Below are positions 14,458 through 23,588 of a stretch of 32,797 bases of DNA, piece by piece; position 1 is the first letter of the stretch, and each line of letters begins with the position of its first letter. Source of the stretch: an uncultured Chthoniobacter sp. (GTDB lineage Bacteria; Verrucomicrobiota; Verrucomicrobiia; Chthoniobacterales; Chthoniobacteraceae); contig CAIQUL010000154.1 in assembly GCA_903874975.1 (NCBI GenBank), positions 1 to 32,797 of the forward strand, read 5' to 3'. A model generated the notes under the pieces. It was not told the DNA's origin and ran no database searches. It saw only the letters and a program-made list of their open reading frames with translations. Made by a program: the position numbers and the translations under genes.

Positions 14458-14853
14458 GTGATGCGCCGCGTCGCCGATTGGTTCCGTTCTCATCCGCTAA
14501 CCACGGCCTTCCTCGTGCTCATCGGCTGCGCCGTGGGCGCGCATCTTTTCGCCAACTGGCGCGCAGAAGTCCGCTGGCAGCAATACTGCACCGAGGCCCG
14601 CGCCCGCGGCGGGAGCGGGTCCACGGTCGGCGGCGGGGGCGCCGCCGACGGCACGCGAGGGCGCGCGCGCTCCCCCGGAACGTCGGTTCTCGAATGGAGA
14701 GGTGCGTGTTCAGTATTCAGTGTGCCGTGCTCAGTTCGGACGCGGCTGCGAAAACTGCATACTGAACACCGCGCCCCGCCCCACTATCACGCGTCCAGAC
14801 ACGCGCGCACATTCCACCCCGCGCGTTCCAGTCGCGCCTGCGCTTCCGCGTAA
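14458..14853 (+). pseudogene. Truncated remnant of a membrane-anchored protein gene
   Basis: The first about 50 residues from the ATG at 14461 look genuine: 'MRRVADWFRSHPLTTAFLVLIGCAVGAHLF', a membrane anchor, followed by 'RAEVRWQQYCTEARARG'. Long Verrucomicrobiota/Planctomycetota hypothetical proteins begin with this kind of anchor plus 'W..Y..E..ARG' segment and continue for hundreds of residues (from memory). Here the reading frame runs at about 14610 straight into repeat DNA (hairpin 14626-14649, ACGCG-type repeat, heptamer repeat 14706-14740) and then into the antisense of the next gene. I read it as a 5' fragment cut by repeat insertion or deletion. Confidence 0.5.
14626..14775. repeat. 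Composite repeat: GC hairpin, ACGCG-type repeat, heptamer hairpin
   Basis: GTCGGCGGCG (14626-14635) pairs exactly with CGCCGCCGAC (14640-14649) across GGGG. Positions 14650-14682 (GGCACGCGAGGGCGCGCGCG, then CTCCCCCGGA) resemble blocks at 23771-23800 and 28105-28133. Next comes a heptamer run at 14706-14740: GTGTTCA, GTATTCA, GTGTGCC, GTGCTCA, GTTCGGA. Its GTGTTCAGTAT (14706-14716) pairs with ATACTGAACAC (14759-14769). Confidence 0.75.
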
Positions 14854-16544
14854 TCCAGGCTGAGCGCCGCGCTGACCAACCGCACGCCGCGGTCGCGCAG
14901 TTTGGCGTTGGAAATGTGCAGATCCACCATCGCGTTGCCGCGCACCCGGCCGAGGCGGATCATCGCGCAGGTCGAGAGCAGGTTCAGCACGACCTTCGTC
15001 GCGGTGCCCGCTTTCAGCCGCGTGGAGCCGGTGATGATCTCCGGCCCGACCGGCAGATCGATCTCCGCATCCCACGGCTGCGCTGCCCGCGCCCGCGCGG
15101 GATTGCACGTCAGCAGCAGCGTCCGCGCGCCCGTTTCCCGCGCCCGCGCCAGCGCGCCGAGCACGAACGGCGTGCGCCCGCTCGCGGCGATCCCGCACAG
15201 CACATCGCCCGCGCGCACGCCCCGCTCCAGCACCGCGTGCGCCCCAGCCACCGGCTGATCCTCCGCGCCCTCGATCCCCCGATGCAGCGCCTCCGCTCCA
15301 CCGGCCATGATGCCCTGCACCAGCTCCGGCGGCGCGCCGAACGTCGGCGGAATCTCGCTCGCATCCAGCACCCCCAGTCGCCCGCTCGTCCCCGCGCCCA
15401 CATAAAAAAGCCGCCCGCCCGCCCGCAGCGCCGCGCTCACCACGTCCACCGCCGCGATCAACTCCGTCCGGCACGCCGCCAGCGCCCGCGCCACCCCTTC
15501 CTCCTCCGTCGTGAAAAGGTCCACCAGCTCCGCCGTCGTCCGCTCTTCGAGATTCACCGACCGCGGATTCGCCTGCTCCGTCGCCGCTGCCGCGAGTGCC
15601 GCCTGATCCTGCGGAAAATCTCCCGCTCCGGCCAAACCAGAAACCTGAAACCCGAAACCTGAAACCCTTCCCGCCAGCCACGCCGCGCCCAGCGCCCCGC
15701 TCTCCGCGCACACGCTTACCGTCGCGTCCGGCAGCAGCACGCTCAGCCGGTATCTGAAAAGCGCCGCGTATTCCTGGTGATGCGTGAACAGCCCGCCGAT
15801 CAGCCGCACCGGCGCTCCGCGAAACTCCAGCCGCTGCGCCACCGCGCGCGTGAACTCCGCCAGCACGCCGGCCCCCGCCTGCACCGTCGCCAGCATCTCC
15901 GGTTCGCCGTGTTTCGCCGCGTGGAAGATCGCCGGCGCGAGCCGGGCCACGCTCATTTTGTCCGCCTGCATCGCCCAGCCGACCAAGTCCTGGAGCCGGT
16001 TCAGCGCCAGCGAGCGCAGGATTTCCTCCGCCAGCGGCGTGATCGTTTGGTTCAAATCGTAGTGCGTCAGCACCAGCCGCAGCCCCTGCATCGCGAGGTC
16101 GTAGCCGCCGCCGCGGTCGCCGAGGAGCTGCCCCCAACCGCCCGCCTTTTCCACCCGCTCGCCGCGCCGCCCATGCACCGCCGCGCCCGTGCCCGCGATG
16201 ACCGCGATCCCGTCCTCCGCGCCAAACGCCACCGCCAGCCCCGAGTCGCGGTCGCTGCCGATCGCCAGCACCGCGTGCGGCCACGCCTTTTCCACCAGCC
16301 CGCGGAGCCGCGTCCGATCCTCGTCCGTCGCGCACCCCGCGAGAAAAACCCCGACGTGCGTGGCGTCCGCCGGGAGCACCGCAAAGAGCCGCGCGAGCGC
16401 GTCATCCGAGGTCAGCCGGAGGTTCGAGCCGGAGAGCTGGCCTTGGCTGAGGATCTTCTGTTCATCAGCCTCGCCGGACAGCAGCACCCACTCAGTTTTG
16501 GTGCCGCCGCCTTCGATTCCGAGGATGCGCTTTGGACTTTTCAT
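14787..16544 (-). CDS. murQ: Sugar kinase (BadF/NagK-MurK-like) fused to MurNAc-6-phosphate etherase
   Basis: This 585-residue, two-domain recycling enzyme starts at the ATG at 16544 ('MKSPKRILGIEGGGTKTEW'). Residues 1 to about 290 form an ASKHA/BadF-type N-acetylhexosamine kinase ('GIEGGGTKTEW', 'VIAGTGAAVHGRRG', 'GGWGQLLGDRGGGYDLAMQGL'). Residues about 318-585 are a complete MurQ with 'TEQANPRSVNLEERTT', 'FYVGAGTSGRLGVLDASEIPPTFG' (catalytic Glu E397) and 'NPARARAAQPWDAEIDLPVGPEIITGSTRLKAGTATK'. The likely combined reaction is phosphorylation of MurNAc to MurNAc-6-P, then lactyl-ether cleavage to GlcNAc-6-P and D-lactate. The linker (about residues 293-303, 'VSGFGFQVSGL') is encoded by a 7-bp tandem repeat. 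In-frame upstream ATGs would add non-family sequence antisense to the VanZ gene. Confidence 0.9.
   Translation of the reverse strand: MKSPKRILGIEGGGTKTEWVLLSGEADEQKILSQGQLSGSNLRLTSDDALARLFAVLPADATHVGVFLAGCATDEDRTRLRGLVEKAWPHAVLAIGSDRDSGLAVAFGAEDGIAVIAGTGAAVHGRRGERVEKAGGWGQLLGDRGGGYDLAMQGLRLVLTHYDLNQTITPLAEEILRSLALNRLQDLVGWAMQADKMSVARLAPAIFHAAKHGEPEMLATVQAGAGVLAEFTRAVAQRLEFRGAPVRLIGGLFTHHQEYAALFRYRLSVLLPDATVSVCAESGALGAAWLAGRVSGFGFQVSGLAGAGDFPQDQAALAAAATEQANPRSVNLEERTTAELVDLFTTEEEGVARALAACRTELIAAVDVVSAALRAGGRLFYVGAGTSGRLGVLDASEIPPTFGAPPELVQGIMAGGAEALHRGIEGAEDQPVAGAHAVLERGVRAGDVLCGIAASGRTPFVLGALARARETGARTLLLTCNPARARAAQPWDAEIDLPVGPEIITGSTRLKAGTATKVVLNLLSTCAMIRLGRVRGNAMVDLHISNAKLRDRGVRLVSAALSLDYAEAQARLERAGWNVRACLDA
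15637..15667. repeat. 7-bp tandem repeat inside the kinase-MurQ coding sequence
   Basis: On the plus strand: CCAGAAA, CCTGAAA, CCCGAAA, CCTGAAA, CCC. These are four consecutive 7-bp units, translated on the minus strand as the interdomain linker. The sequence looks like the intergenic heptamer repeats of the window and unlike the flanking codons (A-rich against a GC-rich background). Confidence 0.85.
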
Positions 16545-16587
16545 CCCCCGACTATCGTGAAAACTCCCCGCGCACTCAAACATTCCC

Positions 16588-19204
<2,617 letters not shown>

Positions 19205-20415: not shown

Positions 20416-21366
20416 ATGTCTCCGCACCACCTCCCGCAAACCGTCTCCGTCCTCCCGATCGAAAAGGGCGGGTCGGGCCGCAAGTTCTGGCGCATGCACG
20501 TCGGCGGGCAGTCGCTCATCCTCGTGCGCTACGGCGAGGATCGCCCGGAGAACAAGCACTACGTCGCCATCGCGCGCTTCCTCGCCGGCGTGGGCGTGCG
20601 GGTGCCGGTCACGTATTTTCACGATGAAGCCGAGGGGCTGATCATCATGGAGGACGCGGGCGAAACCGATCTCTGGAGCCGCCGCAACGACCCGTGGCCG
20701 CAACGCCGCGCGCTCTATCAGCGGTCGCTCGACCAGGCGCTGATTCTCCACCGCGATGCGCACCGCGCGCCGGGCGCGGATTCGCTGACGATCCTCCAGC
20801 CGGTCTTCGATGCAGCGCTCTATCGCTGGGAGCAGGACTACTTTTTCGAGCACTGCCTCGGCCGGCATTTCGGCATCGCGCCCGAAGTCCTCGAAGGCGA
20901 GGGCGACCGCGTCCGCTTGCGGGCGATCGCCGAGCATTTGGCAAAACAGCCGCGCTGTCTGGTGCATCGCGATTTCCAAAGTCAGAATATCATCGTGCGT
21001 GAGGGCGAGGTCTGCCTGATCGATTTCCAGGGGCTGCGGCCCGGCCTCGCGCAGTACGACATCGCCTCGCTACTGCTCGATCCCTACGTGGCGCTGACCG
21101 CCGCCGAGCGCGAAGAACTGCTCGCGCACTATCTCAGCGGCCTGCACGGCCCCGGTCGCCACGAAGCGCCCGGCTTCCGCGCGCTCTACGAACTCTGTGC
21201 CATGCAGCGGCTCATGCAGGCGCTCGGGGCCTACGGCAAACTCGGCCACGCCGACGGTCGCGCGCCGTTCCTCGATCACATCCCCGCCGCGCTCCGCTCG
21301 CTGCGCGAAGTGCTCGCGGGCATCGAGGGCCTGGAGCGGCTCCGCGGCCTGCTCGCGGCGCTCTGA
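20416..21366 (+). CDS. APH-superfamily sugar kinase (AmgK-like)
   Basis: This 316-residue protein has the aminoglycoside-phosphotransferase fold: an N-lobe with 'GGSGRKFWRMHVGGQSLILV' and 'EGLIIMEDAGETDLW', catalytic loop 'CLVHRDFQSQNIIV' (H-D-x4-N) and metal motif 'VCLIDFQGLRPGLAQYDIASLLLDPYV'. The 'DFQ' and 'YD.ASLL.DPY' forms are those of AmgK-type anomeric sugar kinases rather than of drug-modifying enzymes. AmgK phosphorylates MurNAc/GlcNAc at C1, feeding MurU; the adjacent nucleotidyltransferase makes this the leading hypothesis. An alternative is another sugar-1-kinase for the glycan genes downstream. Start chosen at the ATG at 20416; the longer same-frame start lies inside the previous gene. 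Confidence 0.82.
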   Translation: MSPHHLPQTVSVLPIEKGGSGRKFWRMHVGGQSLILVRYGEDRPENKHYVAIARFLAGVGVRVPVTYFHDEAEGLIIMEDAGETDLWSRRNDPWPQRRALYQRSLDQALILHRDAHRAPGADSLTILQPVFDAALYRWEQDYFFEHCLGRHFGIAPEVLEGEGDRVRLRAIAEHLAKQPRCLVHRDFQSQNIIVREGEVCLIDFQGLRPGLAQYDIASLLLDPYVALTAAEREELLAHYLSGLHGPGRHEAPGFRALYELCAMQRLMQALGAYGKLGHADGRAPFLDHIPAALRSLREVLAGIEGLERLRGLLAAL

Positions 21367-21407
21367 CGGAGCGGCGCAGACGGTGCCCCTTCGTTCGCGA
21401 CGCGCCG

Positions 21408-21641
21408 TCAGCCCGCCGCGAGTCGCACGCGCGGGAGCAGGTAGACGAGGATCTGCGCCACACAATCGCCGATGCCGCCTTCCGCCGTCCGTATGTGGAT
21501 GTCCGGCGCGGCCGCCGCTTCGTACGGCGCGTCGATGCCGGTGAGCCAAACGACCCACCCCCGGTGCCCGGCGAGCGCCCAGCGTTGCTCCGCAGTGACG
21601 AGACCTTCGCTGACAAAGAAGTTTTTTTGATCCCTGCTCAT
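21408..21641 (-). pseudogene. cysC: Internally deleted adenylylsulfate kinase (mini-CysC)
   Basis: The 77-residue frame from the ATG at 21641 begins like a normal CysC ('SEGLVTAEQRWALAGHRGWVVWLTG') and ends like one ('TGIDAPYEAAAAPDIHIRT', then 'CVAQILVYL'). In full-length APS kinases (about 200 residues) the first block continues into the P-loop 'GLSGSGKST', and the second block comes about 130 residues later, after 'NFTG'. Here they are joined directly at a shared 'TG' (about 21536-21542), deleting the P-loop and the APS-binding core while keeping the frame. It cannot be a kinase. It is probably a deletion pseudogene; an expressed remnant is possible. No cysD/cysN genes are in the window. 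Confidence 0.75.
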
Positions 21642-21737
21642 GCGCGAAAGTCTTTGCCCAATGCGCCGCGTCTTTGGCAAGGCTGCGCGCGCCCTTTTCA
21701 TGTCCGCATCGCATCACCCCTTTCACGTTCCAACCGC

Positions 21738-23588
21738 ATGTGTGGCCTAGCGGGCTTCGCGGGCCGCGGTGATCTCGGGGTGCTGCGGCGCATGACCGCC
21801 GCCATCGCGCACCGCGGGCCGGATGCGGACGGGCATTGGGCGGAGGAAAGTGCGGGCGTTTTCCTCGGCCATCGGCGGCTCTCGATCGTGGACCTTGGCG
21901 GCGGCGCGCAGCCCATGTGGACGCGCGACGGCCAGCTCGGCGTGACCTTCAACGGCGAAATCTACAACCACGCCGAACTCCGCGCGGAGTTGAAGGCGCG
22001 CGGGTGCGAGTTCACCACCGACCACAGCGACACCGAGGTGCTGCTCCACGGCTACCGCGAGTGGGGCGAGAGTTTCGTCGAGCGGCTAAACGGGATGTGG
22101 GCCTTCGTGATCTACGACCGCGCGCGGCGGCGGCTCTTCGGATCGCGCGACCGTTTTGGAAAAAAGCCGCTCTACTACTTCAAGGAAGGCGAGACTTTCG
22201 GCTTCGCGAGCGAGTTGCCCGCGCTGCTCCAGCATCCGAGCTGCCCGCGCGATCTCTCGCCGCTCTCGCTGAAGAAATACTTCGCTTACTGCTACATCCC
22301 CGCGCCTCGCTCGATCTACGAACGCGTGTGGAAGCTGCCCGGCGGGCACTCGTTCACCTTCGACCTCGCGAGTCGGGAGCTGAAGACGTGGCGGTGGTGG
22401 GAGTTTGTTTTGGAAACCGGCGGGCCGCTCAGGGACGAGGAGAGCCTTTGTGAAGAAATCCGCGCCACCCTCGAGCGCGCCGTCCAGCGCCGGCTGATGT
22501 CCGACGTGCCGCTCGGCGTCTTCCTGAGCGGCGGCATCGACAGCTCGGCCATCGCCGCGCTCGCCGCGAAGCACGTCCCCGCCGGCCAGCTCAACACGTT
22601 TTCCATCGGCTTCAACGAGGCGAGCTTCGACGAGTCGGGCTACGCGCAGTTTGTCGCCGAGAGGCTCGGCACGCGGCATCGCAACGAAACGCTCGACCTC
22701 GACAAATCCACCGCGCTCCTCCCCGAGATCGTCGCGCGCCTCGACGAACCGCTCGGCGACGGCTCGCTCCTCCCGACGTATCTGCTTTCGCGCTTCACCC
22801 GCCAGCACGTCACCGTCGCGCTCGGCGGCGATGGCGGCGACGAACTCTTCGCCGGTTACGATCCCTTTCGCGCCCTGCGCGCCGCCGAGCTTTACGCGAA
22901 GCTGGTGCCGCGTCCGGTGCATCACGCCATCCGGCTACTGGCCGCGCGCCTGCCCGTCTCGCATGAAAACGTGAGCTTCGATTTCAAAATCAAGCGCACC
23001 CTCATGGGCCTGAGCTCCCCGCCGAAACTCTGGAACGCCGTCTGGATGGGCGCGCTCGAACCCAGCGGGCTCGCCCAGCTTTTCCGCGAGCCGTGCGACG
23101 AGGAGGAGATTTACAGCGAAGCCATCGAAGCCTGGGACCGCTGCGCCCAGCCGAACCTCGTGGACCGCGCGCTCCAGTTTTTCACGAACGTCTATTTACC
23201 GGACAACATCCTCACCAAAATCGACCGCGCCTCGATGATGTGTTCGCTCGAAGCGCGCTCGCCTTTTCTCGACATCGAAGTCGTCGATCTCGCCCGTCGC
23301 ATCCCGTGGCAGCTCAAGCTCCGTGGCGGCCAGACGAAGTGGATTTTGAAAAAGGCGCTCGCGCCGCTCCTCCCGCGCGAAATCATCGACCGCAAAAAGA
23401 AGGGCTTTGGCATGCCCATCGGCCGCTGGCTGCGCGAGGGAAAGTTCGACTTCGATCACGCGCAGAGTTTTCCGCACCTCGACGTCGCCTTCGCCGAGCG
23501 CCAGCACACCGCGCACCTGGCCGGCACGCGCGATGAGCGGCTTTTCCTCTGGAGCTACTGGCTGCTCGGCCAGTGGATGAAACGATGA
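21738..23588 (+). CDS. Asparagine synthase-like glutamine amidotransferase (first copy)
   Basis: The 616-residue product starts with the N-terminal nucleophile Cys2 ('MCGLAGFAGRG'), then the class-II glutaminase motifs 'IAHRGPDADG', 'RRLSIVDL' and 'FNGEIYNHAELR', and the synthetase PPi loop 'SGGIDSS' (from S264), 'LGGDGGDELFAGY' and 'ARSPFLDIEVVDLA'. The family amidates asparagine or, in polysaccharide and exosortase-associated loci, other carboxyls. The context of a glycosyltransferase, a second copy and nucleotide-sugar genes suggests amidation of a surface glycan (for example uronic acids), an inference. The start is fixed by Cys2; the longer upstream frame is antisense to the mini-cysC. 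Confidence 0.9.
   Translation: MCGLAGFAGRGDLGVLRRMTAAIAHRGPDADGHWAEESAGVFLGHRRLSIVDLGGGAQPMWTRDGQLGVTFNGEIYNHAELRAELKARGCEFTTDHSDTEVLLHGYREWGESFVERLNGMWAFVIYDRARRRLFGSRDRFGKKPLYYFKEGETFGFASELPALLQHPSCPRDLSPLSLKKYFAYCYIPAPRSIYERVWKLPGGHSFTFDLASRELKTWRWWEFVLETGGPLRDEESLCEEIRATLERAVQRRLMSDVPLGVFLSGGIDSSAIAALAAKHVPAGQLNTFSIGFNEASFDESGYAQFVAERLGTRHRNETLDLDKSTALLPEIVARLDEPLGDGSLLPTYLLSRFTRQHVTVALGGDGGDELFAGYDPFRALRAAELYAKLVPRPVHHAIRLLAARLPVSHENVSFDFKIKRTLMGLSSPPKLWNAVWMGALEPSGLAQLFREPCDEEEIYSEAIEAWDRCAQPNLVDRALQFFTNVYLPDNILTKIDRASMMCSLEARSPFLDIEVVDLARRIPWQLKLRGGQTKWILKKALAPLLPREIIDRKKKGFGMPIGRWLREGKFDFDHAQSFPHLDVAFAERQHTAHLAGTRDERLFLWSYWLLGQWMKR

Follow-up and report, generated by a model that had tools for sequence, protein, structure and literature searches.

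APS kinase, the CysC protein, is encoded either as a free enzyme or as the C-terminal domain of the bifunctional CysN/CysC protein (TIGR00455, PF01583). A 77-codon ORF (P0002) carrying both ends of this enzyme was found on the minus strand of the window, a term used here for the whole analysed stretch of 32,797 nucleotides from an uncultured Chthoniobacter sp. (assembly GCA_903874975.1, contig CAIQUL010000154.1). Its N-terminal block, through WLTG, and its C-terminal block, from IDAPYE, are collinear with those of CysC, but P0002 is short of about 128 residues, the P-loop included. Comparison can also be made with pseudogenes formed by RecA-independent deletion between short direct repeats, a process documented in E. 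coli (PMC5426353). The end points of such deletions are two short identical sequences of which one copy is retained, with which P0002 is likewise compatible; it differs in that its deletion is in frame and falls at two TG motifs of one protein. It is considered probable (at roughly 0.8) that P0002 is a dead remnant of cysC left by an in-frame deletion of the core between short repeats, the mechanism and the lack of function being the parts that we infer. The coordinates of the locus are given in Table 1.

Table 1. Features of the cysC-derived locus, with positions numbered from the first letter of the window
Feature	Position	Strand	Basis
Stretch of 371 nt between two genes, unmatched at the DNA level in the regions compared from four congeners	21367..21737		DNA comparison
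77-codon ORF P0002, probable internally deleted cysC relic	21411..21641 (stop codon 21408-21410)	minus	Translation; profile and sequence search
N-terminal CysC block, residues 1-35, ...VTAEQRWALAGHRGWVVWLTG	21537..21641	minus	6b8v residues 14-50; at most 57% identity to relatives' N blocks
C-terminal CysC block, residues 36-77, IDAPYEAAAAPDIHIRT...	21411..21536	minus	6b8v residues 162-204; at most 57% identity to relatives' C blocks
Putative deletion junction TCACCGGC, codons cTC ACC GGC, end common to both blocks	21537..21544	minus	Sequence; repeat comparison in intact relatives

Minus-strand translation from the ATG at 21641 to the last codon, ending at 21411, gives a product of 77 amino acids, MSRDQKNFFVSEGLVTAEQRWALAGHRGWVVWLTGIDAPYEAAAAPDIHIRTAEGGIGDCVAQILVYLLPRVRLAAG. 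The NCBIfam profile apsK matched this product with an E value of 2.9e-8 in two separate stretches, and the best PDB sequence match was the APS kinase 6b8v (E 2.1e-11), with residues 9-45 of P0002 corresponding to residues 14-50 of the chain and residues 27-69 to residues 162-204, in the same order. Together with the alignment of relatives, these matches identify both blocks as CysC-derived and bear out the preliminary description, in which the N- and C-terminal blocks of CysC were said to be joined in frame at a common TG. The family cut-off for APS kinase is not reached (apsK bit score of 33.6 against a curated cut-off of 138.7), and Pfam APS_kinase scored 15.1 bits, under its cut-off of 21.1 bits, as is expected because only fragments of CysC remain. 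The P-loop motif GxxGxGK[S/T] is not present in the 77-residue translation; it is present in the comparison relatives, which were picked by that motif. Judged from its translation, P0002 cannot be an active kinase. An alternative in-frame ATG lies upstream at 21701 and would give 97 amino acids. The suggestion that the native start had been kept was not confirmed, as the N block of most relatives is preceded by the linker of a CysN/CysC fusion and the original start of the gene cannot therefore be inferred.

On the coding strand the DNA of the junction reads TGGCTCACCGGCATCGAC, also given as CTCACCGGCATC. The distance from TG to TG in 41 intact relatives is 126-128 codons (128 in 37 of them), so that about 384 nt are missing from P0002; the resulting figure of about 128 residues agrees with the loss of about 130, P-loop included, that had been proposed. 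In intact relatives the P-loop is usually preceded by the codons TGG-yTn-ACn-GGn and the C block by TTy-ACn-GGn, and an exact repeat of 8-10 nt is found at both deletion sites in 4/41 of them, with 2-7 nt in the rest. Repeats of comparable or greater length also occur elsewhere within the cysC genes of these relatives, and the deletion site is thus not the sole possible one. The junction is compatible with the loss of DNA between two copies of an 8-nt repeat, TCACCGGC, presumed to have stood at both ends. Deletion between two short similar sequences, as first proposed, is still the best cause, given the junction itself and the exact repeat of at least 8 nt in 4 of the 41 intact relatives. The parent cysC would have carried TCACCGGC twice, once where the end of WLTG is encoded, ahead of the P-loop, and once in the FTG codons preceding IDAPYE, and one in-frame loss of about 384 nt between the two copies would have removed the catalytic core. 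Slipped replication or single-strand annealing may have been the route, as a single event of either kind would yield exactly the segment loss that is seen; the leftover product would be unable to bind ATP and without function.

A degenerate pattern of the junction was found in the window's genome alone, that is in 1/40 genomes of the family and 1/388 of the phylum, and gave no match in viral contigs. No relative was found when the 77-residue protein was used as query against genome contigs, viral contigs and plasmids. The search of relatives for the same short form, which had been put forward as a check, therefore returned only the window's genome among the 40 family and 388 phylum genomes, and as the form occurs in no relative, nothing shows that P0002 has been kept as a conserved small protein. 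The same pattern gave six matches in a species-level genome collection, of which one is a true second case (locus L083); L084, L086 and L088 were rejected as intact CysC with W before FTG, and L085 and L087 as chance matches. The second case lies in a MAG of Lachnospiraceae bacterium UBA7026 (DLBH01000020.1), in an ORF ending ...VTIWLTGISAPYEVPESPDIEVDT..., and shares with the window's genome the WLTG-I..PYE junction, the TGGCTCACCGGC codons and the absence of a further APS kinase match. It differs from P0002 in being a CysN/CysC fusion with extra in-frame joins upstream, and it belongs to an unrelated lineage, which makes it an independent event. Read by eye, its 220-aa ORF (L083:2444-3106) appears to consist of three parts joined in frame, namely the beginning of a binding lipoprotein, part of CysN, and a CysC that has lost its core. 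The further joins may reflect repeated decay and deletion, or faulty assembly. Two independent deletions at one site agree with a short repeat built into the gene, within a search that covered this junction alone.

The locus lies where gene order changes. DNA homology to four congeners stops at about 21362 on the left, where a phosphotransferase gene ends, and restarts on the right at 21738, exactly at the ATG of asnB. These two genes adjoin in the window (21362-21738) and have separate neighbourhoods in the four congeners: by names given by eye, the phosphotransferase is followed by a cytochrome/planctomycete-type gene in G002 and G003 and by a gmhA-like gene in G001, and asnB is preceded by a glycosyltransferase, which in the window's genome is on a different contig with other genes after it. 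An intact cysC on the asnB side was sought in relatives and none was found, the congeners carrying the glycosyltransferase at that place. The position of P0002 is therefore a rearrangement breakpoint or, with lower probability, an erroneous join. Elsewhere in the window, a 624-aa ORF (14787-16661, minus strand) resembles an N-acetylglucosamine-type kinase fused to a MurQ-like etherase.

The breakpoint, with neighbours differing from those of the congeners on both sides, is one of the observations that would suit an artefact of assembly or library, in which the organism has an intact cysC at this place and 384 nt are lost from the contig, or in which two places were wrongly joined. The division of the assembly into 348 contigs points the same way, as does the fact that the other case of the junction is likewise in a MAG and in an ORF with further in-frame joins. 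However, assemblers work with k-mers or overlaps far longer than 8 nt, so the repeat is too short to mislead one and a collapse at P0002 would need chimeric DNA; neither CysC block has more than a chance-level match elsewhere in the assembly. The P of PYEAP, constant in 37/37 aligned relatives, is A in P0002, and changes are also found at positions 10, 23 and 24, where W, R and N stand in 35, 31 and 33 of the 37. These altered residues suggest that the gene was already off constraint, which also speaks against an artefact, and this explanation is considered improbable.

It had been argued that the absence of stop codons made the event recent or the small protein kept. This is not supported: all three minus-strand frames are open over the locus (21073-21948, 21215-21637 and 21411-21713), so an open P0002 frame is expected and carries little information on recency or selection, conserved residues have changed, and the form is absent from relatives. 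A 77-residue protein that is expressed and functional, for instance in binding CysN or as a non-catalytic regulator, would account for the in-frame fusion, the plausible start codon and the gene-like G+C content by codon position (0.71, 0.49, and 0.81). Such retention is nevertheless very unlikely given the singleton form, the uninformative open frame and the loss of a residue that does not vary among 37 relatives. Neither a sigma-70-type promoter nor a terminator was matched at the locus, and single-sequence structure prediction gave no confident fold for the 77 residues (pLDDT 44.7); the missing promoter match and the missing fold likewise count against retention. An RNA or regulatory element was dropped as a candidate, there being no Rfam match. 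Two observations count against the reading of P0002 as a dead remnant, namely that the gene-like codon-position values indicate a decay that is not advanced, and that the closest intact relatives are only about 57% identical per block, so that changes before and after the deletion cannot be separated. Chance likeness of an unrelated ORF to CysC, spurious ORFs being plentiful in high-GC DNA, is ruled out for practical purposes by the E values of both searches and by the two separate blocks in the correct order.

The genome of the window (G000) is 95.9% complete. The APS_kinase domain has no match at all in it and is present in 46/57 relatives; a full-length cysC elsewhere in the assembly, also suggested as a check, was sought and not found. 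The genes cysH-cysD-cysN are on contig C119 (G000:C119:2906-5843, locus L078), with CysN unfused. The CysH encoded there is without the CC..RK and GC..C iron-sulfur ligands, which are present in CysH of the congener G003 and in the CysH found beside cysN/cysC fusions in six further genomes of the family. The window-type CysH, a subtype ending in PNEWDYFDPAKADEKRECGLH, is shared by members of the order and was found in G000, G002, G004, G005, G011, G013, G037, G047, and G049. Among these genomes, APS kinase was not detected in G000 (96% complete), G002 (73%) and G005 (97%) and is present in the other six.

The presence of the iron-sulfur cluster goes with use of APS, and its absence is no proof of PAPS use; moss APR-B uses APS without the cluster (PMC2275785). 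In C. glutamicum, a missing cysC has been explained by CysH acting on APS (PMC1266029). The gap in the window's genome may mean that CysC is bypassed, that an intact cysC was missed in the assembly, or that the pathway is broken. A more specific proposal, that the ligand-less CysH reduces APS directly in this sub-lineage, so that cysC became dispensable and was lost with P0002 marking the loss, is put forward tentatively and is rather doubtful. As another decayed gene, P0002 is in itself of little weight, and its value is as a pointer to the gap in the sulfur pathway: a nearly complete genome keeps the sulfate-activation genes cysD and cysN together with a CysH that, having no iron-sulfur ligands, looks PAPS-type, with APS kinase present only as what is probably a dead relic. 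Should this gap prove genuine, the organism would need reduced sulfur, or else this clade of CysH would be another cluster-free, APS-using reductase like moss APR-B.
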